Virus record (IMG/VR): IMGVR_UViG_3300047365_000330
Coordinates: 1 to 23,458 of that record
Source: a virus
Strand: one strand, 5' to 3'
DNA length: 23,458 nt
Shown here: in pieces, positions 2,748 through 18,064 of the stretch
How the letters are laid out: the number at the start of each line of letters is the position of its first letter
Numbering within the stretch: position 1 is the stretch's first letter
The notes under the pieces: model-generated
Told to the model about the DNA's origin: nothing
The model's database searches: none
The model's input: the letters and a program-made list of their open reading frames with translations, nothing else
Program-made: the position numbers and the translations under genes

Positions 2748-3268
2748 TACACTCTCGGTAGTTCTATAGTGTCTTTATTAGTAATAATATGTTGATGACA
2801 CTTAATATTTTTCCTATTACACGTAAGATATAAATCTGGCAATAATCTATAACGATACCGTGGATCTAAATACTCTATAAATCTTTCGATTGAATAAGTC
2901 TTATCTACCTCTGCACTCATTGATATGAAAGGTTGAAAGTTATTTTCTATTGCCCATTGTGTTTGTTGCGGAACAAACTGATCAGCACAAAATCTTATAT
3001 TTTTCTTAATAAACTTATTAATACCAAATCTTCTATGAGATCGAAACGTGCAATATCTATCACATATTCGTACAGTCTTATCATTAAACTTCGTGATGCC
3101 GCCCATCGCTATTGGCACACTATCGTCTTCAAGTACGTGAAACTGCAAGTACTTATCCCATCTTTTTTTTATTTTATTATACTCATAGTTTTCTGCATTA
3201 CGATGGTTATCGTTAGTTGCTTGTTCGCAAAGATCTTTAATGTCTTCTACATCATATATATTTTTCAT
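2747..3268 (-). CDS. GNAT-like acyltransferase-type protein (173 aa)
   Basis: The layout resembles small phage GNAT-family proteins: an N-terminal helix pair, then beta strands around LQFHVLEDDSVPIAMGGITK and a helical segment (FGINKFIKKNIRFCADQF). The conserved acetyl-CoA pyrophosphate loop (Q/RxxGxG/A) is not clear, so activity is uncertain. The frame is open to 3292, but the ATG at 3268 forms a TAATG overlap with the TauD-like gene and is preferred. It sits between two oxygenase genes, which suggests a shared modification pathway. Low certainty on function. Confidence 0.5.
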   Translation of the reverse strand: MKNIYDVEDIKDLCEQATNDNHRNAENYEYNKIKKRWDKYLQFHVLEDDSVPIAMGGITKFNDKTVRICDRYCTFRSHRRFGINKFIKKNIRFCADQFVPQQTQWAIENNFQPFISMSAEVDKTYSIERFIEYLDPRYRYRLLPDLYLTCNRKNIKCHQHIITNKDTIELPRV

Positions 3269-3972
3269 TAACATACGCCGGCTATTCTCCATAGATGTCT
3301 ATTACCAGCAGTGGTACCTTCTCTTTTATGGTTAGTAGTGAGATTATTACTTATCATTAAGTCACCTTTCTTCCACTTATGGTAGTATATTCTATCAGGT
3401 GCATAAAGAACATCTTCTATTATTTTTTTCTCGTCAAGTGGCAAGTCGGTGTACGCTTCTGAATAGAATACATATTTACTTTTAGAGTCTTCTTGTATTA
3501 ATTGATGTTTAACGTTTCGATATTTTAAACGAAACCATCTTCTATCTGCTTCAGTCTTAAACTTATATCCATACCTCTCGCTTTTTGTAAATCTATCCAT
3601 ATTAGCAGATACGAGTCTATCTGGTATCGGGCAGTCTATTCGATTACTTACGAACATAGTTCTGCCTGCGTCGTCTGATACGTCGACCGCGTATAGTCCT
3701 GTTATATGAACAGGATCTTGCATGTACCCACCGTCCATGTGCCATTCTAAATCAGAACTACTGTAAAGATTACCACGACCTTCACCGCTGCTCGTAATGT
3801 CAAGAAATATAGTGTCCATAGGATTTTGGCCTACAACTTGATAATGTTGATTTACAAATTTAAATATTTCCATTTGAGATGCTGGAGTATTTTCTATAAT
3901 TATTAAGTCTGTATCTTTATTTTTAAGAGACGTTAAGTCTCTATTATTCCAGTCTTGTGTTGTTACTTTCAT
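3268..3972 (-). CDS. TauD/TfdA-family 2OG dioxygenase (234 aa)
   Basis: W77-H78-x-D80 (LEWHMDGGY) is the family's first iron motif. H215 (TTNHKREG) and the following R225/R229 (NRHLWRIAG) match the C-terminal HxnR motif that binds iron and 2-oxoglutarate. The middle part (GLYAVDVSDDAGRTMFVSN) fits the TauD/CAS/BBOX core. Members oxidise taurine, betaines, amino acids or carrier-bound substrates. At 234 aa it is slightly short for the family. It is coupled by TAATG overlaps to the desaturase upstream and the GNAT-like gene downstream. Substrate unknown, but the family call is firm. Confidence 0.85.
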   Translation of the reverse strand: MKVTTQDWNNRDLTSLKNKDTDLIIIENTPASQMEIFKFVNQHYQVVGQNPMDTIFLDITSSGEGRGNLYSSSDLEWHMDGGYMQDPVHITGLYAVDVSDDAGRTMFVSNRIDCPIPDRLVSANMDRFTKSERYGYKFKTEADRRWFRLKYRNVKHQLIQEDSKSKYVFYSEAYTDLPLDEKKIIEDVLYAPDRIYYHKWKKGDLMISNNLTTNHKREGTTAGNRHLWRIAGVC

Positions 3973-4685
3973 TATGCACTCCGTATTAATTTTATAAAGA
4001 AATATGTAGGATCTATCAGTCCGTGTCTTATTTTCTTTGAATCGTCGTGATGTGCTTTGTGATATCCTTCACCTGCAGTAAAAATATTGATAAGTGTGTT
4101 GTTAGTTGCCTCACCGGTTTTATGTAAGTATGCGTTAAATAATCCAAACAAATGTGAGCTCAACACACATGGCAATGCATATGCAAACACTAACAACAAT
4201 GGATCTATTACAAATAATAATACAACTAACACACTAACCATTTTAAAATAATGATCATGCCAAAATTTAAGTATTTTATTGTTTATAAGACCTTTAAAGA
4301 ACTTTCTTTCAATCTTTTGTTCTAGTCCCCACAAATTAAAATAAATTCGCCAAAACCCGTAATGGTTCGGAGATTGTGGATCTTTATCTGTGTCAGAATA
4401 AGCGTGATGTTGTCTATGTATTGCTGCTCTAGTTAAGTACGGTCCAGATCCTATGAATAAACTTAAAGTGTTAGTAAAATATTCAAACCATTTACCAACT
4501 TTAAATGCGTCATGTGCGTAGAACCTATGATAACCTGCGCTTGATGACATAATTGTAATACAATAATACCATGCAAAACCTGCTATCCACATCCACCATG
4601 TTCCATATATTGCACCATATATTAATGCAAAGTGGCATAAACTGTGATTAATTAATAGTTTATATGTAGTCTTTATATTAAACAT
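3972..4685 (-). CDS. Membrane fatty-acid desaturase, delta-9 type
   Basis: All three histidine boxes are present in order: HRFYAH (53-58), HRQHH (90-94) and EGYHKAHH (206-213), plus an asparagine/histidine pair in NAYLHKTG. Hydrophobic segments near 12-45, 65-85 and 148-185 give the four-helix topology expected of acyl-CoA/acyl-lipid desaturases. The known reaction is insertion of a cis double bond into a saturated acyl chain using a di-iron centre, O2 and reducing equivalents. At 237 aa it is a compact version. The start overlaps the upstream oxygenase by 13 bases and the stop overlaps the TauD-like gene (TAATG). It probably alters host membrane lipids during infection. Confidence 0.9.
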   Translation of the reverse strand: MFNIKTTYKLLINHSLCHFALIYGAIYGTWWMWIAGFAWYYCITIMSSSAGYHRFYAHDAFKVGKWFEYFTNTLSLFIGSGPYLTRAAIHRQHHAYSDTDKDPQSPNHYGFWRIYFNLWGLEQKIERKFFKGLINNKILKFWHDHYFKMVSVLVVLLFVIDPLLLVFAYALPCVLSSHLFGLFNAYLHKTGEATNNTLINIFTAGEGYHKAHHDDSKKIRHGLIDPTYFFIKLIRSA

Positions 4686-5164
4686 TTACCTCTCAATTCA
4701 TTTTCTACTTCTTTAAACGTTTTTTTATGCCAAGCAAATTTTAATAATAATCTATCACTAGGATATGGCTTAACGCTGTGATGTTTAGATACATCTATTA
4801 AAGCATTCTTATAATATTCATCGCCGTAATCAAAAGTTATAGGTGCTACGTCATCTGATAATAATAAATTAATTGCTGTAATAACATCATAATCTCTATG
4901 CTTTGGTAAAAAAGAATTTGCTAATTGTTTATAAACATATATAATATCACATTTAAATGCTGCATTTAAGCGTTTAATCTCAGGTAGACTATTAGTGTCT
5001 TCAATAATGGTTTTTAACCATGTATCAGTTTTATACCAAAATTGTTTACTTTCTTCCGTTTTTGCTCTCCACCAATTATTAGAATGGCCAGGCTTTAAAT
5101 GAAGTGTATCAATTTCTTTTATTACTTTATCTTTATCAAAAGAAATATTTAAGTGTCTAATCAA
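4673..5164 (-). CDS. Small 2OG-Fe(II) oxygenase-like protein (163 aa), TTG start
   Basis: H89-x-D91 (LPKHRDYD), H128 or H129 (SKHHSV) and R138 (SDRLLLKF) give the iron triad and co-substrate arginine. TAINLLLSDD matches the paralogues at 1850-2314 and 2280-2747. There is no ATG near the N-terminus. The TTG at 5164 overlaps the previous TGA (TTGA) and gives an N-terminus (MIRHLNISFDKDK) similar to that of the 2280-2747 paralogue, so TTG is the likely start. The N-terminal 60 residues are tryptophan-rich (NNWWRAK). The product lies immediately upstream of the desaturase. Confidence 0.7.
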   Translation of the reverse strand: MIRHLNISFDKDKVIKEIDTLHLKPGHSNNWWRAKTEESKQFWYKTDTWLKTIIEDTNSLPEIKRLNAAFKCDIIYVYKQLANSFLPKHRDYDVITAINLLLSDDVAPITFDYGDEYYKNALIDVSKHHSVKPYPSDRLLLKFAWHKKTFKEVENELRGKCLI

Positions 5165-10602: not shown

Positions 10603-11252
10603 AACATACTCCTAATTTTTGCTTTACCTTTTGGTCCAGTCCAATGCATAATTCTTGTTTTACCAGTATAACCATCATTTTCTACTTGTATTCTTAATAC
10701 GTTATATTCGTTAGGCAGATCGTTTATTGCATTAATTTTAGTAATAGGGGTCAATAGTGAATCAAGTACTTCTTGATCTCCTACCTCTTGTTTATTTTTT
10801 CTAATTGCTTCTACCCATCTACTTAATATTATAGGTTTATCTATAAAACCTACAACACCTGAATTGTGCCATAGGTGCCCGCGTCTTAAAGTCCACGGTT
10901 TATCTTCAACCATTGATAGTTTATTAGGTTCTAGTAAATCAAATATGCCATCAATATTATCTTTTATCTCGCAATCAGTATCTAACCATACAGTTTTTTT
11001 AGCTGGGCATTTATACATTGATAACGGTTTTTTAAACCAACCAGATTCTTTAACATTTGATAGATCCATTACTGCATCTACGTTTTCACGTATAATCTTA
11101 AGACCTAATTCACTAAGACCGAAGTTAGCAAATACTATTGGACTTTTAGTGTGTTTTTTTAAGTTCTTTAAAAACCATGGAAGAATCCACTCATGGCTTT
11201 CATCGCATCCAGTTAAAAATGCTTGATCAAATAATTTCGTAGGTTTCGCCAT
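10599..11252 (-). CDS. GT8-like glycosyltransferase (217 aa)
   Basis: TVWLDTDCEI contains the DxD metal/sugar-nucleotide motif. HNSGVVGFI and QEVLDSLL match the NxG and DQ-type acceptor motifs, and a C-terminal IMHWTGPKGK matches the HxxGxxKPW-like end of GT8 enzymes. Family role: transfer of a sugar from a UDP- or similar donor with retention of configuration. The frame is open to 11336, but ATG at 11252 (MAKPTKLFDQAFLTGCDE) is chosen to limit overlap with the upstream GT25 gene to 26 bases. Donor and acceptor unknown. Confidence 0.7.
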   Translation of the reverse strand: MAKPTKLFDQAFLTGCDESHEWILPWFLKNLKKHTKSPIVFANFGLSELGLKIIRENVDAVMDLSNVKESGWFKKPLSMYKCPAKKTVWLDTDCEIKDNIDGIFDLLEPNKLSMVEDKPWTLRRGHLWHNSGVVGFIDKPIILSRWVEAIRKNKQEVGDQEVLDSLLTPITKINAINDLPNEYNVLRIQVENDGYTGKTRIMHWTGPKGKAKIRSML

Positions 11253-11868
11253 AATTATGTTTTGCGTAGCACCCTTGTTTTTGTTGTATTGTAGTAAAAC
11301 TATCTCTGGCTTCTGCTGGCCATGGATAGTATTCACCTAGTGTAAATTTACTTGAATGTATGTATATGTCTGTTGGACCTGCAGAAAATACGCACTCATC
11401 AATCAATTGCTGTGCACCTTTTGGCGTTAATCTATATGCATGTGCGCCTGGGAAATATGGCTTAGATACTAGTGAGCCATAACCTATAAATGATGGTGTA
11501 TTGAATTTACCGTATGACGGTTTACCAAGATTTAAAATGTCAAACATCATCATTTGTGGAACGTCTCCAACTAATACTGCATCATGCTCAAATATAACTA
11601 TAGGCTCTTTAGACCTAACACACTTTTTCCACAAACTATGATGACTTAAAAACCCTGCTATACAATTTTCTGGTCTACTATATATTTCATTAAATGCTGC
11701 AGAAGGATATTTAAGTTTTTTTAACTCTTCATATACATCACAGTTTTCTGGAGTGTAAGCTTTATGCTTGTTTATTTTATAACCAAATACTAAACCACTT
11801 TTAACGCATCTATCAGCAACTTGAACTGATCGATCATTTTCTGTTATTGTTATTACATACATTTTCAT
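11227..11868 (-). CDS. GT25-family glycosyltransferase (213 aa)
   Basis: MYVITITENDRS starts the fold as in LPS beta-galactosyl/glucosyltransferases. GFLSHHSLWKKC matches the family's GCxxSH block, and PIVIFEHDAVLVGD carries the acidic ExDA motif. AHAYRLTPKGAQQLID and GPTDIYI follow in the expected order. Known members extend LPS, glycoprotein or capsule glycans. It is closely related in layout to the next gene upstream (11865-12563), a likely duplication. ATGA overlap at the start. Confidence 0.82.
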   Translation of the reverse strand: MKMYVITITENDRSVQVADRCVKSGLVFGYKINKHKAYTPENCDVYEELKKLKYPSAAFNEIYSRPENCIAGFLSHHSLWKKCVRSKEPIVIFEHDAVLVGDVPQMMMFDILNLGKPSYGKFNTPSFIGYGSLVSKPYFPGAHAYRLTPKGAQQLIDECVFSAGPTDIYIHSSKFTLGEYYPWPAEARDSFTTIQQKQGCYAKHNYGETYEII

Positions 11869-12563
11869 AGTGTTGTTGTTGACCTCAATCCTTGTATTCT
11901 TGTATAGAAATTACGTGTTACTCCAAGCTTAGGGACTAATTGATAACACATTAGTGCATCGTTTGGCCACATACCGTATTCCTGTGTTAAATCAATCATA
12001 AGTTGTGCGCCTGCTGGTTTTATAACATATGCTGAGTTACCAGCCAAACCTTGCGGTATATTGTATTCGTCAATCCTTGGAACTGGCTGAAAGAAATCAA
12101 TCTTTTCTTGGATTTTATCATGGTATATTTTAGATTTACGAGTTGCCATTGATGGATCGTTTATTCCTATAATATCAAAAGGTGCTTTATCAAATGTACT
12201 ATCAGCTGGTAATCTTTTTATAAACCTAGAATCGTGTTCAAGTATTAATATAGTCTCATTAAGATTTTTGCACTTCTGCCACAAATACCAATGACTTAAA
12301 AAACACGACATACGTTTTCTTTTATCTGCGGTTTGATATGCAGACTTAAGCATACCGCTTTTCATATCTAGGTCTTGACCTTCCCATGGATAATTCCAGG
12401 TTAATCCATTACCGCCACAATATCCTTCTACTTTATTAAGTTCAATTGCTTCATGCATTTCAAGGCCATCTTCATGGCCATACTTTTCATAACTTTCTTT
12501 AAGTTCATTAAAACCAGACATTGAAATCTTATTATCTGGTACTACTATTGCAAAAGCTTTCAT
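11865..12563 (-). CDS. GT25-family glycosyltransferase (232 aa)
   Basis: The GT25 blocks are present in order: CFLSHWYLWQKC, ETILILEHDSRF, GNSAYVIKPAGAQLMID and WPNDALMCYQ. The frame is open to 12614, but ATG at 12563 overlaps the upstream stop as ATGA and begins with the family's first strand (MKAFAIVVPDN). It is adjacent to a second GT25 gene, so the two may add successive sugars. Donor unknown. Confidence 0.82.
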   Translation of the reverse strand: MKAFAIVVPDNKISMSGFNELKESYEKYGHEDGLEMHEAIELNKVEGYCGGNGLTWNYPWEGQDLDMKSGMLKSAYQTADKRKRMSCFLSHWYLWQKCKNLNETILILEHDSRFIKRLPADSTFDKAPFDIIGINDPSMATRKSKIYHDKIQEKIDFFQPVPRIDEYNIPQGLAGNSAYVIKPAGAQLMIDLTQEYGMWPNDALMCYQLVPKLGVTRNFYTRIQGLRSTTTL

Positions 12564-12985
12564 TTTATTACCTTTACTTCTGTTCCGTCTTCGATATAAT
12601 GTTTTCCAATGCAATATCTTCTTAAATAGTCTTTTCTAGAGTACGCAAAATTATTAACATTATCTATTATAATATCAAATCTTGGTTTATTCCATACATT
12701 TATCATAACATCATTAATATTTTTTTGATTTATTGTATCGCATCTTGACCAAAATATTCTTTTTTCTCCTAGATAATTATATTTATTTGGTTGTCTTTTA
12801 TCAAATTCGTCAATACAATAAATGTTAGATCTTTCTAAAAATTTATGCCAAACCACTATACTATTTTCTACGCCAACTTGTAAAATATTTAAAGGCTTAT
12901 GTCTATATTGAAATAATTCTTTTTCATAAAATAAAGAATATTTTTGCCTATTAGATTTATATCTTTGCATTAATGTATCAAGCAT
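12560..12985 (-). CDS. Short SAM-methyltransferase-like protein (141 aa)
   Basis: NILQVGVENSIVVWHKFLER is a recognisable version of motif I of the capsule/macrolide methyltransferase group (ILEIGVxxGGSLxxW). NIYCIDEFD follows as motif II and PRFDIIIDN as motif IV. The glycine positions of motif I are partly replaced (ENSIVV), and the C-terminal part is shorter than the usual 200 or more residues, so it may be a reduced or non-catalytic form. It lies within the glycan operon, 1 base from the stop of the upstream gene. Confidence 0.55.
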   Translation of the reverse strand: MLDTLMQRYKSNRQKYSLFYEKELFQYRHKPLNILQVGVENSIVVWHKFLERSNIYCIDEFDKRQPNKYNYLGEKRIFWSRCDTINQKNINDVMINVWNKPRFDIIIDNVNNFAYSRKDYLRRYCIGKHYIEDGTEVKVIK

Positions 12986-12986
12986 T

Positions 12987-13724
12987 TTATCTTCTGTTGC
13001 GCCAAAATTTTTCTATTACTACGCCACCATAAACACAATGATGATTATCTAAAGTACTTAACATTTGATACCAACCATATTCAGCAGGCCATAACTTTTT
13101 TTCTTTATGCAGTTTGTGTACTAATTCGGTATCATACAAGTTACGTGGATGAAATATTAAAAAATCATTTAACCAATAACTCCAATCTCGACTCCACATA
13201 ATATCAGTATCTTCATTTATAAACACATGATCAATATCTTTAAAACTATTAAGATCAGTCCATCTGCCTCCTCGTATAGCAAAACCAATTGCCATATTTT
13301 CATTATAAGATTGTTCTAAGTACTTGCTAAAATTTACTTTTTCAGAAACTACTGTATCCCATCTTGCTCTTATAATCATATCATATTCTTGCGGTAAATC
13401 GGCAACTTGATACGCATGTGCAATGAGTTGTTTAGTCGCATTCAATAACTTTTTTTTATGAGACTCACCAGTTTTTTCTAAAAACTGTTTTTTGTAAACA
13501 TGATATTTTGGATGAGGATTATCTTTTACACATTCACACCACGGATTATAATGCATAGTTGGTTCAGGATAATAAGTAGAATTATACCTTTCTGATTCAT
13601 CATTTTTGTGCTCTTCCCATGAAGAAAAAAACATAGGCACATCGGGGAATGCTTTTTTTAAGTAACCGATGTTTCTTTTTATGTTACCTCTGGCAAGGCC
13701 AGATATGCAAATTGCAATTTTCAT
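12987..13724 (-). CDS. Putative glycosyltransferase-like protein (245 aa)
   Basis: MKIAICISGLARGNIKRNIG... is typical of a family of LPS/capsule-associated proteins beginning with a CISGxxR strand. EYDMIIRARWDTVV matches that family's YDxVIRxRxD motif, where the aspartate is thought to act like a DxD. Other features are FFSSWEEH near residue 33 and aromatic-rich C-terminal segments. The exact reaction is not established. TAATG overlaps join it to the nucleotidyltransferase gene upstream. Confidence 0.6.
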   Translation of the reverse strand: MKIAICISGLARGNIKRNIGYLKKAFPDVPMFFSSWEEHKNDESERYNSTYYPEPTMHYNPWCECVKDNPHPKYHVYKKQFLEKTGESHKKKLLNATKQLIAHAYQVADLPQEYDMIIRARWDTVVSEKVNFSKYLEQSYNENMAIGFAIRGGRWTDLNSFKDIDHVFINEDTDIMWSRDWSYWLNDFLIFHPRNLYDTELVHKLHKEKKLWPAEYGWYQMLSTLDNHHCVYGGVVIEKFWRNRR

Positions 13725-14458
13725 TATAAGTCCTCAAGTTTATCCCAATATTCACTATTTTTTAAATCATTTAATTCTTCTGGTGTTCCCATTCCTATCA
13801 TTTCATCTATACGATGTATTCCAACATTTTCTTCTAAATAGTTATATGTAGGTGCTAAATAAAATTCATTATTTGTTCTATCATTTGCAGCCATTTGTTT
13901 TTCATGTGCTTTAATCCAATTACACTCATCACCAAAATAATAAACGCCAACTGTTGCAATATCGCTTATAATTTCTTTTTCTCTAAGTTGTAATAAATTA
14001 TCGTATTTATCAACCTCACAGTAACTATGTTTTGGTTCATTATGATTTGGCGTAAACACTGGTATTAGACCACCTGGATATAAATTACTTTCTATCTTTT
14101 CATAAAACTCTTTAGGATCCCATCGCATCAATTGATCACAATTTGCAACTATCATAGGTTCACCACCTAATACATTTGTAGCTAGCCTTACAGTACATGC
14201 TGCACCTTCGGTTGTACCCGGTATGATTATAATATGAGCATCAGGATAATGTTCTAGAATACGTTTATCAATTTCATATTCATTAACGTGGTCTTGTCTA
14301 ACTATACACCACGGCTTAACGTTATCGCCTAACCATAAGTTTTCAATAACTCGTGCAAACATAGGTTTGCCTTTTATATCGATTAGTGGTTTAGGTAAAT
14401 CATATCCATCATCAAAAAATCTCTGACCGTTTCCAGCCATAGGCAGTATGACTTTCAT
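13724..14458 (-). CDS. Sugar-1-phosphate nucleotidyltransferase-like (244 aa)
   Basis: MKVILPMAGNGQRFFDDGYD... followed by PKPLIDIKGKPM is the NTP-transferase signature: the G-x-G-x-R phosphate-binding loop and the PKPL lysine. EGAACTVRLA and MIVANCDQL give the base-binding region and metal-binding aspartate. The pattern is closest to capsule-type nucleotidyltransferases (BcbE/HddC-like). Known role: NTP plus sugar-1-phosphate to NDP-sugar and pyrophosphate. It is joined by TAATG overlap to the RuBisCO-like gene immediately upstream, so that protein could help make or modify its substrate. Confidence 0.8.
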   Translation of the reverse strand: MKVILPMAGNGQRFFDDGYDLPKPLIDIKGKPMFARVIENLWLGDNVKPWCIVRQDHVNEYEIDKRILEHYPDAHIIIIPGTTEGAACTVRLATNVLGGEPMIVANCDQLMRWDPKEFYEKIESNLYPGGLIPVFTPNHNEPKHSYCEVDKYDNLLQLREKEIISDIATVGVYYFGDECNWIKAHEKQMAANDRTNNEFYLAPTYNYLEENVGIHRIDEMIGMGTPEELNDLKNSEYWDKLEDL

Positions 14459-15546
14459 TATAACATCGCCTCACTCATTTCTTTTACTTTATGGTATAAT
14501 GTATTACCAGTTGTTCCATCGCCAGTGTGTAACCAACCACCGACTGATCCCATCCAATTGTTACCTATACGTTCTTTAATTTCTCTTGCAAGAACTGGAT
14601 TCATACCACAACTTAACGATGGAATAACATTATACTTATTACAAATCTTTATTGCTTCAAGTGTTTCTGTTTCGCTTTCACCTTCTGGATAATATCCACC
14701 CAACATGCCAACATGCATACTATCAATACCTGCCATGCAGCCTAACTTTACTAAAACTGGCCATGATAAAGAATACTTGTTACTTGGATCAGTTAAAATG
14801 CGTATACCAGATCTTTGGTAGTGAGTTGCAATCCAGTACTTTCTAGCAGTTGTGTAAGCACCAAGTCCAGACCAAAAATTAATATGTACACCGCCAACAG
14901 TTCCTTCACTACTTGTAGCCATTTTTACTGCTGCACAGTTGTCTACTAACTCTAAAGGATCAGCGTTAATACAATAAGCGTAAAAACCTTTCCAACCAGA
15001 TATTGTTTTAAGATGTTCAATAGCATCAATTCTTTCTTGCAGAGGTAAATAAGAGTTATTTGCCATAATCTCATCTTCTTTAATAAAATCTGCTCCACCA
15101 TACATCATGTCTTTAACTAAAGATAACAGCTGTTCTTTATTAAGACCAGACTTAGGTTTAATGATAGCACCAAATAATGGTCTATTTTCTGCATTTAATC
15201 TTTTTTTCCAGCCACTCATACCTAAAAGCGGTTCAATTGTTTTAATTGGTATGTCTATGTCTATTACTCTGCATCTATCAACACCTAAAATATCAGTATG
15301 ACCACCCATAATAATACACATTAATTGATTGATATTTGGCCAATCAAATGCGCCTAAAGGAAATTCAATAACAACAATGTTTTTCTTTATGCTTATGACT
15401 TGTGCTATATAATCTTTTACGTTTGTGGCGTTTTCTATTTCAGATCTTATATTTGGATTTCCAATACTTTGTCCAATAGCAATTTCATGTGCTATTTTTG
15501 GAATGTCTGGACCATCTACTTCATAAGTAACTGTGTATCTTTTCAT
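14458..15546 (-). CDS. RuBisCO-like protein (form IV-type, 362 aa)
   Basis: The N-terminal domain begins YTVTYEVDGPDIPKIAHEIA. The TIM barrel carries GAIIKPKSGL, with K130/K132 equivalent to K175/K177 of plant RuBisCO. GGADFIKEDE gives K156, D158 and E159, equivalent to the carbamylated K201, D203 and E204. GIDSMHVG gives H278 (H327), then SCGMNP and VGGWLHTG for the phosphate sites. Missing are loop-6 K334 (here MLGGYYPEG), N123 (here GG) and the HRAMH motif (here TDPSNK in a shorter loop). Metal binding and enolisation are therefore plausible, but RuBP carboxylation is not. Known RuBisCO-like proteins act on sugar-phosphate-like or thio-sugar substrates. ATGA and TAATG overlaps place it inside a glycan operon. 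Confidence 0.9.
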   Translation of the reverse strand: MKRYTVTYEVDGPDIPKIAHEIAIGQSIGNPNIRSEIENATNVKDYIAQVISIKKNIVVIEFPLGAFDWPNINQLMCIIMGGHTDILGVDRCRVIDIDIPIKTIEPLLGMSGWKKRLNAENRPLFGAIIKPKSGLNKEQLLSLVKDMMYGGADFIKEDEIMANNSYLPLQERIDAIEHLKTISGWKGFYAYCINADPLELVDNCAAVKMATSSEGTVGGVHINFWSGLGAYTTARKYWIATHYQRSGIRILTDPSNKYSLSWPVLVKLGCMAGIDSMHVGMLGGYYPEGESETETLEAIKICNKYNVIPSLSCGMNPVLAREIKERIGNNWMGSVGGWLHTGDGTTGNTLYHKVKEMSEAML

Positions 15547-16160
15547 ACTCTTATCTCGAACTGTGTTACGCCATGTCTAAACATATGCTTGGTTAAGTTA
15601 TTGGTATTTATGAATTCGTTAACTGCTTTTGTCACACCAGCTTTAGCCCATTTGTTTACGCCTGGTTTCAAAGGTGGCCAACCATAATCATCACCTAATA
15701 TAAGTCCACCTGGTTTTACTATTTTTAACGCATTTTCTAAATCGCGTAAGCATCCTTCATATGAATGATCACCATCAATATAGATCCAATCTAATTCAAC
15801 GTCATTGTATTTTTTAAACCATTCGTCAGATAACATACGACAGATTTCGACTTCTTTGTGTGTTCTAAATCTTGAATTAATTTCTGTATAAACTCTATCA
15901 TAGTATTTTTGAAAACCTGCTTCTGCAAACTCTCCAGTAATCGGTTGATATTTTGCAAGATATTCTTGATACGTCATTTCTGAGTTTTCTTTATATGGTT
16001 CAACAGAATATGAATCAACCATGTATAGTTTTTTTAAACGTCTTTTTAAAAATTGTGTTGATGTATTACCAAACCAAACACCAATTTCTGCACCAACAGT
16101 GTTAGGTTTTATTACGTGCATTAAATGGTGAGAGTCTTTATTTGTGTGTGTTGCCATCAT
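15543..16160 (-). CDS. Class I SAM-dependent methyltransferase (205 aa)
   Basis: VGAEIGVWFGNTSTQFL is motif I with an E-x-G-x-x-x-G pattern. KLYMVDSYSV supplies the acidic motif II, LDWIYIDGDHSYEGCLRDLE is the strongly conserved DGDH region of the Methyltransf_24 group, and KPGGLILGDDYGWP follows. Such enzymes often methylate hydroxyl or carboxyl groups on sugars or small molecules. Two tandem ATGs (16160, 16157) are possible starts. It is coupled to the RuBisCO-like gene by ATGA overlap. Substrate unknown, probably a glycan precursor or tip sugar. Confidence 0.82.
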   Translation of the reverse strand: MMATHTNKDSHHLMHVIKPNTVGAEIGVWFGNTSTQFLKRRLKKLYMVDSYSVEPYKENSEMTYQEYLAKYQPITGEFAEAGFQKYYDRVYTEINSRFRTHKEVEICRMLSDEWFKKYNDVELDWIYIDGDHSYEGCLRDLENALKIVKPGGLILGDDYGWPPLKPGVNKWAKAGVTKAVNEFINTNNLTKHMFRHGVTQFEIRV

Positions 16161-16935: not shown

Positions 16936-17273
16936 TGGCTTTTCTTCTCTGTTATTTCGCTACCAAAATATATATCAATACGTTTTTTAGTTTCATGTCT
17001 TAAATCATTTATTTGAGTAATAAGAAATGCAGTATTAGATTCTTCTTTACTAAATCTTTCTACATCTTTTCTTTTAATATCTTCTAAATACCATAACTGT
17101 TGATTAATTGCTAGCATAATACCTAAATAAAAATCAAATCCTGGATGAGTTAAATCAAGACTTTTGTATTGTTTTAATTCTGTTGCAACGTCAAGACCTT
17201 CGTCTTGTTTTATTACTAATATAGAATACCTATCTATATATTCACCCATACTTATATCAATTTGAATTTTCAT
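16932..17273 (-). CDS. DUF6165-like protein (113 aa)
   Basis: MKIQIDISMGEYIDRYSILV..., followed by a helical segment (TELKQYKSLDL) and LWYLEDIKRKDVE, resembles the small DUF6165 family (VSxGElvDKxTILxIK start) often found beside LPS and glycosyltransferase genes. It is helical and soluble, and its role is unknown. ATGA overlap with the GT8-like gene upstream and TTGA with the GT9-like gene downstream indicate tight co-expression. Confidence 0.65.
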   Translation of the reverse strand: MKIQIDISMGEYIDRYSILVIKQDEGLDVATELKQYKSLDLTHPGFDFYLGIMLAINQQLWYLEDIKRKDVERFSKEESNTAFLITQINDLRHETKKRIDIYFGSEITEKKSH

Positions 17274-18064
17274 TGAACAATCTCCATTAATTCATCCACG
17301 TTTTCACCACCGTTTGGTAATTTGTCTTTAAGAAAGAAATGTACAAAATAAGCTTCTTTAACTTTTTCAATTGGAATTGCTGTATATAATGCATTCCATT
17401 TCCAATTAAGATATGTCTGGACCATTTTCTCTTTTTTAACCCAATAGTTTAATAGGGTTTGATCTGTGCTCCATTTCCATGCGCCTAGGCCATCAATGAA
17501 GTTTTTAAATTCAGATCTTTGTATAAATTCTTTTCCAGTTTGGCCTTTAAGGTATTTTAATATACTTTTATCCATAAGCATAAGACCCATATTATAAAAT
17601 AATGCACCATCGCTATTCCATTCCCAGTCAACATCACTAAGTTGAGAATACTGCATTCTAGTATATCCTGCTAGTTTTTGTTTATACCATGGGAGGATTG
17701 GCGCCATTCTTTCCACAACTCCAGCAAATTCGGCGGTTCCACCAAAAGAGTCCAATTGATCGAAGATGTTTGGTGAGTCATTGCGCACCCAGATATCAGC
17801 ATCAATAATGCAAATTTGGTCGTAACTACTAAAGTAATCAAATGCGTTTTCTTTTTCATATATCGGTAAAAACCCTCCATATTTTTCGTATGACTCTTTA
17901 CTACGATTTGTGGCAAATACGTCAGGTTTAATTTTCATTATAGGTTGAGTTTGAATAATGTATTCTACATTATTTTTTTCAGCGTATGCTTTAACCGAAG
18001 CTGTACAGTGATCATACAGCTTCGATGGTTTTCCAGTATAAACTTGGTAGATCAATCTTCTCAT
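17270..18064 (-). CDS. GT8-like glycosyltransferase (264 aa)
   Basis: YDQICIIDADIWVRND holds the DxD motif (DAD) for metal and nucleotide-sugar binding. YNMGLMLMD is the NxGxxxx block, and STDQTLLNYW is the DQ block used in acceptor binding. A late YFVHFFLKDK provides the C-terminal histidine region. An AAGGAT ribosome site precedes the ATG. It is the first gene of the glycan island in transcription order, 15 bases after the EF-hand gene. Donor and acceptor unknown. Confidence 0.75.
   Translation of the reverse strand: MRRLIYQVYTGKPSKLYDHCTASVKAYAEKNNVEYIIQTQPIMKIKPDVFATNRSKESYEKYGGFLPIYEKENAFDYFSSYDQICIIDADIWVRNDSPNIFDQLDSFGGTAEFAGVVERMAPILPWYKQKLAGYTRMQYSQLSDVDWEWNSDGALFYNMGLMLMDKSILKYLKGQTGKEFIQRSEFKNFIDGLGAWKWSTDQTLLNYWVKKEKMVQTYLNWKWNALYTAIPIEKVKEAYFVHFFLKDKLPNGGENVDELMEIVQ

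Follow-up and report, generated by a model that had tools for sequence, protein, structure and literature searches.

Gene content and organisation of the locus

The window, meaning the whole stretch of DNA analysed, is a 23,458-base IMG/VR record. A RuBisCO-like protein (RLP) is encoded in it, together with the following genes of the same region, all on the minus strand:

11227..11868, minus: glycosyltransferase family 25 (LPS type), second copy (PF01755, 42.2 bits)
11865..12614, minus: glycosyltransferase family 25 (LPS type) (PF01755, 42.7 bits)
12987..13724, minus: SG protein (CISGLAR motif), a predicted GT-A-fold transferase of 245 aa which adjoins the NT stop (AlphaFold2 model, pLDDT 88.5)
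13724..14458, minus: sugar nucleotidyltransferase-like protein (NT) of 244 aa (PF00483, 45 bits), coupled to the RLP gene
14458..15546, minus: RLP of 362 aa with an ATG start (Pfam PF00016/PF02788, AlphaFold2 model, tree)
15543..16160, minus: class-24 methyltransferase (PF13578, 60.8 bits)
17270..18064, minus: glycosyltransferase-8-like protein of the same operon, tentatively named since its PF01501 score (16.3 bits) is below the cut-off (24.3)

The start of the RLP gene overlaps the stop of the methyltransferase gene (GTATGA), while its own stop overlaps the start of the NT gene (TAATG), and the translational coupling on both sides proposed in a preliminary description of this DNA is therefore real. 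The same description placed the RLP within a phage glycan operon; this holds for the window, where two family 25 glycosyltransferases, the methyltransferase, the predicted GT-A-fold SG protein and the NT surround it. The SG model was found to have a GnT-I/POMGnT1-like GT-A fold (Z 12.7 to POMGnT1 and 12.5 to GnT-I; rmsd 3.2, 182 residues), with nucleotidyltransferases of the same fold at Z 11.5 and below; judged from this model the protein is likely, not certain, to be a GT-A glycosyltransferase. Members of the SG family were present within 4 kb of the RLP in 61 of 103 loci.

Elsewhere in the window, a fatty-acid desaturase-like protein (3972-4685; PF00487, 46.8 bits) adjoins a TauD-family dioxygenase (3268-3972; 69 bits), and four small ORFs (1088-1840, 1850-2314, 2280-2747 and 4673-5164) with no Pfam match appeared by eye to be 2OG-Fe(II) oxygenase-like (HxD...H motifs).

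Fold and active-site residues of the RLP

The RLP was matched by Pfam RuBisCO_large (86.1 bits, cut-off 30.1) and RuBisCO_large_N (24.4 bits, cut-off 20.7). Its AlphaFold2 model (27 relatives in the input; pLDDT 89.6, pTM 0.90) superposed on a form III RuBisCO with a Z of 38.3 and an rmsd of 2.4 Å over 347 residues. The protein is a genuine member of the RuBisCO superfamily, with an N-domain and a TIM barrel, and structure prediction with superposition thus bore out what had been proposed from the sequence. Values of Z for MtnW and other RLPs were 36-37.5, so close to that for form III that structure alone cannot pick the RLP subfamily.

Residues were compared in an alignment of 34 members of the RLP family with RuBisCO forms I, II and III, MtnW and acid-sugar RLPs, using spinach numbering. 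K130, K132, K156, D158, E159 and H278 of the window RLP correspond to spinach K175, K177, K201, D203, E204 and H327, in agreement with the residues originally described as retained. K175, K177, K201, D203, E204 and S379 were kept in 34/34 family members, the carbamate lysine (Lys201) and the metal ligands (Asp203 and Glu204) among them. The histidine at H278, as originally read, is present in the window RLP; as a family-wide feature it does not hold, the position being His in 30 and Gln in 4 of the 34. The position of R295 carries K or R in 32/34.

The losses originally described, of loop-6 K334, N123 and the HRAMH region, were also seen in the alignment, the window RLP having G82 at the position of N123, Q244 at H294, I248 at H298 (mostly D in the family) and Y285 at K334. 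The substitutions N123G, H294Q, K334Y, T65N, W66P and G380C were fixed in all 34 members. From established RuBisCO enzymology, carboxylation is not expected where N123, H294 and K334 are lost, and the original view of the protein as an RLP rather than a CO2-fixing RuBisCO is upheld by the replacement of this catalytic set in 34/34. With the lysine and metal set intact, enolisation chemistry would be retained; on these residues, metal-dependent enolisation by a protein which is not a carboxylase is plausible, and we infer from the kept residues that K156 may be carbamylated. Four of the fixed substitutions (T65N, W66P, K334Y and G380C) rebuild the P1 phosphate site, so that ribulose bisphosphates are unlikely as substrate, a monophosphate being only a guess.

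Phylogenetic placement

A careful maximum-likelihood tree was built from 71 proteins, including RuBisCO forms I-III, MtnW (as PDB sequences) and acid-sugar RLPs, each of which formed a group of its own. The RLP family was split off from the other proteins by a branch supported at 100/100, was set apart from RuBisCO forms I-III (100/100 and 100/98), and was also recovered as its own clade in a quick tree. The placement that bears most directly on the original description is that relative to the known functional RLPs, and the family lies outside both the MtnW and the OiaX/acid-sugar clades (100/100). In these sequences the clade is deeply separate, with a distinctive residue signature, and is set apart from the clades tested; it may yet belong to one of the named clades IV-Photo, IV-DeepYkr, IV-AMC or IV-GOS, which, like the R. 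rubrum RLP, lie outside this sampling. The window RLP falls within a viral subclade. A GOS study described 65 RuBisCO homologues clustering with no known form (PMC1821046), and these may include the clade of the window RLP.

A very divergent RuBisCO-fold protein from a proteobacterial genome (L167, G586) was placed on a long branch near MtnW.

Distribution in viruses and cells

An alignment-based scan of viral contigs in IMG/VR yielded at least 347 stretches encoding the RLP, and a scan with the single protein gave 165 matches. In isolate phages there was no match to the RLP protein among 50,697 phage records (INPHARED) and none by megablast with 10 kb of the window; PHROGs contained no RLP family, and a search of BFVD by fold returned generic TIM barrels only, with no RuBisCO fold. 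A search of the literature on phage or glycan-linked RLPs returned nothing describing the family of the window RLP, the subject of the Lac Pavin paper being cellular RuBisCO and not phage RLPs.

The window virus looks T4-like: T4 RNase H domains are encoded in the window, and the T4 Gp23 capsid family was found in 6 of 15 large viral relatives. Four kin of the window phage (L184, L185, L186 and L187) encode dCMP-hydroxymethylase-like proteins of the thymidylate-synthase family (MRSNDVVFGYKND), adjoined in L184, L185 and L187 by a dCMP-deaminase-like ORF, which suggests hydroxymethyl-cytosine DNA.

Cellular relatives of the RLP were found in SAR11 (single-cell and isolate genomes), Azospirillum, Elusimicrobia, Verrucomicrobia, Patescibacteria, nano-archaea and Legionella (L. 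nautarum, L. drozanskii and L. maceachernii). They are rare, occurring in 2/297 genomes of the SAR11 order and 4/143 of the Legionella family. The SAR11 cassette sits between housekeeping genes and is thus chromosomal. A Sphingobacteriales MAG (L082) is not firm cellular evidence, since its neighbouring genes belong to viral families and it is perhaps a mis-binned phage contig. The phage setting originally described is accordingly true of the window but not specific to phages, the cassette being present also in SAR11, Legionella, Verrucomicrobia, Elusimicrobia, Azospirillum and nano-archaeal records. In SAR11 chromosomes it adjoins epimerases and glycosyltransferases; the Legionella RLP-NT pair adjoins a LicD gene and that of Verrucomicrobia a WavE gene. 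A glycan context for the RLP is supported, and a surface glycan is the target favoured by the chromosomal copies beside polysaccharide genes and by the family 25 enzymes encoded in the window.

Conservation of the RLP-NT cassette

The partner NT has the features of a sugar nucleotidyltransferase in its sequence. Its invariant motifs are G-x-G-x-R, PKP and NCDQ, and G9, G11, R13, K23 and D108, which comprise the GxGxR signature and the metal-site Asp, were kept in 74-75 of 75 NTs. The best PDB match was 4evw, labelled only as a nucleoside-diphosphate-sugar pyrophosphorylase, and with the closest solved structure so vaguely named the specificity of the NT is not readable from its sequence.

A PF00483-type NT was located within 5 kb of the RLP in 94/104 loci (within 1 kb in 84), and the pair, whose recurrence in viral contigs the preliminary description had left to be searched for, is thus conserved. 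In nine of the ten loci lacking an NT the flank is short or cut, or a masked stretch is close by (L101), while L052, which has full flanks, an RLP and a cupin, is a real absence. The NT, where on the same strand, followed the RLP in 51 loci and preceded it in 37, with a median gap of 0. Divergence of the two proteins was correlated (Mantel r 0.53; 0/500 permutations as high). Divergence of the RLP also tracked that of the cupin and of SG in Mantel tests, while no correlation was seen with the GDPD-like protein (r -0.02), considered as a co-evolving partner.

Small cupins adjoin many of the RLPs. A role for the cupin as an RLP-specific second enzyme was considered and rejected as the main idea, as cupins also accompany NTs without an RLP. 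One cupin-like protein of ~107 aa (RGWFIGNFEPS...; L084:1122-1442, L082:11055-11381, cluster 8) has almost no Pfam match and occurs in NT modules with or without an RLP. A further protein of ~150 aa with an IAHRGN motif (L085:4109-4561 and cluster 6) is Pfam-invisible, appears to be a truncated GDPD-type barrel, and was seen in numerous viral and SAR11 glycan modules. In five SAR11 loci (L089, L090, L091, L092 and L097) the RLP lies between two different nucleotidyltransferases, one per type.

Replacement of the RLP in related loci

Cultured marine cyanophages were found to encode the same NT family with no RLP, and the fusions seen there offer the best indication of function. The NT forms the C-terminal half of a longer protein in S-CAM9, S-8S53 and B23, the N-terminal half being a beta-phosphoglucomutase-like HAD (HAD_2), and in S-SKS1 its fusion partner is DHBP synthase (RibB, 219 bits), whose acidic loop DDxDRExEGD is intact. 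SG-like proteins are encoded in these RLP-less loci, and a GDPD-like protein in most of them. Among 91 viral NT loci (near-identical contigs counted separately), 27 had a fused HAD_2, 7 a nearby HAD, 12 a fused RibB and 20 a nearby RLP; in most of the remaining 24 the NT is longer and carries a DxDGT (HAD-like) motif at its C-terminal end, as read by eye in three examples. NTs linked to an RLP were monofunctional in 90/90 (221-282 aa) and never fused.

The NT-RibB fusion is found in S-SKS1 (L271:5001-6425; HQ633071.1 38066-39493) and in about ten IMG/VR contigs (L352-L361), and is annotated solely as a riboflavin enzyme. It suggests an activated sugar of the dihydroxybutanone type.

By gene-fusion logic, the RLP, RibB and HAD would each fill one and the same place in the pathway, providing the NT with a phosphorylated substrate. 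The RLP is thus probably an exchangeable source of this substrate, which the NT activates for a GT-A-fold transferase encoded in the same operon. The reaction of RibB on ribulose-5-phosphate proceeds by way of a 2,3-enediol, and that of RuBisCO on ribulose bisphosphate does likewise. Because 2,3-enediol(ate) chemistry is shared by both, a pentulose phosphate is the leading candidate substrate, on which the RLP may act as an enolase or isomerase. The HAD variants indicate that the NT family overall is not confined to pentulose chemistry, and as a counterpoint to the pentulose model the HAD partner fits an ordinary sugar-1-phosphate pathway better.

Proposed function and alternatives

The reading preferred here, to which we assign a probability of roughly 55%, is that the RLP is a metal-dependent, lysine-carbamylated enzyme which does not fix CO2 and which feeds a phosphorylated product to the NT, from which an activated donor reaches a glycan. 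The RLP would draw a phosphorylated keto-sugar from the metabolism of the host, the leading guess being a pentulose phosphate like ribulose-5-phosphate, form its enediolate, and so yield a product that is again phosphorylated. This would be turned by the coupled NT into an NDP- or CDP-activated donor, which the SG protein and neighbouring glycosyltransferases may then attach to a glycan, probably on the surface of the infected cell. The RLP would be one of several interchangeable suppliers of the NT, the others being a HAD hydrolase or mutase and RibB. The apiose-type, branched or carboxylated sugars raised in the preliminary description gain no support from these data as products of the RLP.

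The order of the two steps could be reversed, with the RLP acting after the NT as an isomerase or epimerase of a nucleotide-linked keto-sugar (NDP-ketose). The RLP and NT genes vary in order and so do not indicate which step comes first, NDP-4-ketosugars occur frequently in glycan operons, and both phosphate sites are altered in the RLP. Such a role is nevertheless unlikely: the swap with HAD or RibB, which are sugar-phosphate enzymes, points upstream of the NT, and RLPs are known to act on phosphorylated keto-sugars or acids and not on nucleotide sugars (PMC6302742).

The activated sugar could alternatively be destined for hypermodified phage DNA, by glycosylation of hydroxymethyl-cytosine. 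T4-like phages modify this base with glucose or arabinose, and the window phage looks T4-like by its RNase H domains and the Gp23 of its kin. Thymidylate-synthase-family proteins are encoded in the relatives L010, L020, L023, L037 and L052, and all four of those whose sequences were read are similar to dCMP hydroxymethylase, with Asp in place of N177; a dCMP-deaminase-like ORF adjoins three of the four. DNA is kept among the possible targets by these dCMP-hydroxymethylase-like proteins of close relatives, but as a general role for the cassette its modification is rather improbable, given the copies in SAR11, Legionella and Verrucomicrobia chromosomes and the viral records (fragments) that carry the cassette and in which no such gene was found. 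The operon moreover has LPS-type family 25 enzymes, and no DNA glucosyl- or arabinosyl-transferase was recognised in a general scan of the proteins.

A diverged methionine-salvage or acid-sugar (OiaX/apionate-type) enzyme, carried in the glycan operon as metabolic cargo, would belong to the same superfamily and is weakly matched by NCBIfam OiaX (91.6 bits) and MtnW (53 bits); it is very unlikely, as these scores are far under the cut-offs (700 and 409), the clade is split off at 100/100, the NT partner is constant, and no four-carbon acid-sugar kinase was seen beside the RLP, unlike the acid-sugar RLPs of L168-L170. It is just as hard to credit that the RLP has no chemistry of its own and serves the NT as a scaffold or regulator, a RuBisCO fold with its catalytic capacity reduced. 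The changed active-site positions and the close NT partnership lend this view something, but five residues of the catalytic and metal sites do not vary among 34 divergent members, which indicates selection for catalysis.

To our knowledge, the functions described for RLPs in the literature are all catabolic or salvage, namely methionine salvage, its isoprenoid-linked shunt and the use of apionate-type sugars. The clade of the window RLP would be the first with a link to the synthesis of a nucleotide-activated sugar. It would also be the first sizeable viral group in the RuBisCO superfamily, with its IMG/VR matches numbering at least 347 and none in the phage resources searched. More speculatively, it could represent a new functional class, an anabolic RLP which rearranges a ribulose-phosphate-like sugar in place of RibB or HAD, so that glycans receive a nucleotide-activated keto-sugar without precedent, and which owes its spread chiefly to T4-like viruses. 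The search for the substrate is narrowed by the NT-RibB and NT-HAD fusions, and a defined cassette of two to three genes is testable in vitro and may reveal an unrecognised component of bacterial or phage glycans.

Comparison with known systems

The best sequence and structure matches of the window RLP are to archaeal form III RuBisCO, with which it shares K175, K177, K201, D203, E204 and S379, although identity is about 20-24% and the window clade differs by N123G, H294Q, K334Y, T65N, W66P and G380C. MtnW (2,3-diketo-5-methylthiopentyl-1-phosphate enolase of Bacillus and Geobacillus) has the same fold (Z 37.5 to 2zvi), the carbamate lysine and the metal ligands, lacks the loop-6 Lys and is likewise not a carboxylase. 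It has Lys at position 123, however, where the window clade has Gly, it lacks the K177 which that clade keeps, it retains H294, and it belongs to a separate clade with a different gene context. The acid-sugar RLPs (OiaX, 3-oxo-isoapionate-4-phosphate decarboxylase, and its kin) resemble the window RLP in having K175, K201, D203 and E204, but they keep H294, R295 and K334, are catabolic, form a separate 100/100 clade, and adjoin four-carbon acid-sugar kinases, of which none was recognised in the window operon from the ORF list and Pfam.

In the R. rubrum pathway a cupin methylsulfurylase acts after the RLP. Small cupins similarly adjoin many RLPs of the window family, although there the cupin is not RLP-specific and also occurs with RLP-less NT modules. 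The R. rubrum RLP is an MTRu-1-P isomerase and acts on a ketopentose phosphate (PMC6302742). Finally, the NT-HAD and NT-RibB fusions of the Synechococcus phages S-CAM9, S-8S53, B23 and S-SKS1 differ from the window cassette in that their NT is joined to HAD_2 or DHBP synthase and no RLP is present; they share with it the same NT family, GT-A-like SG neighbours, in most cases a GDPD-like protein, and a position in a phage glycan operon.
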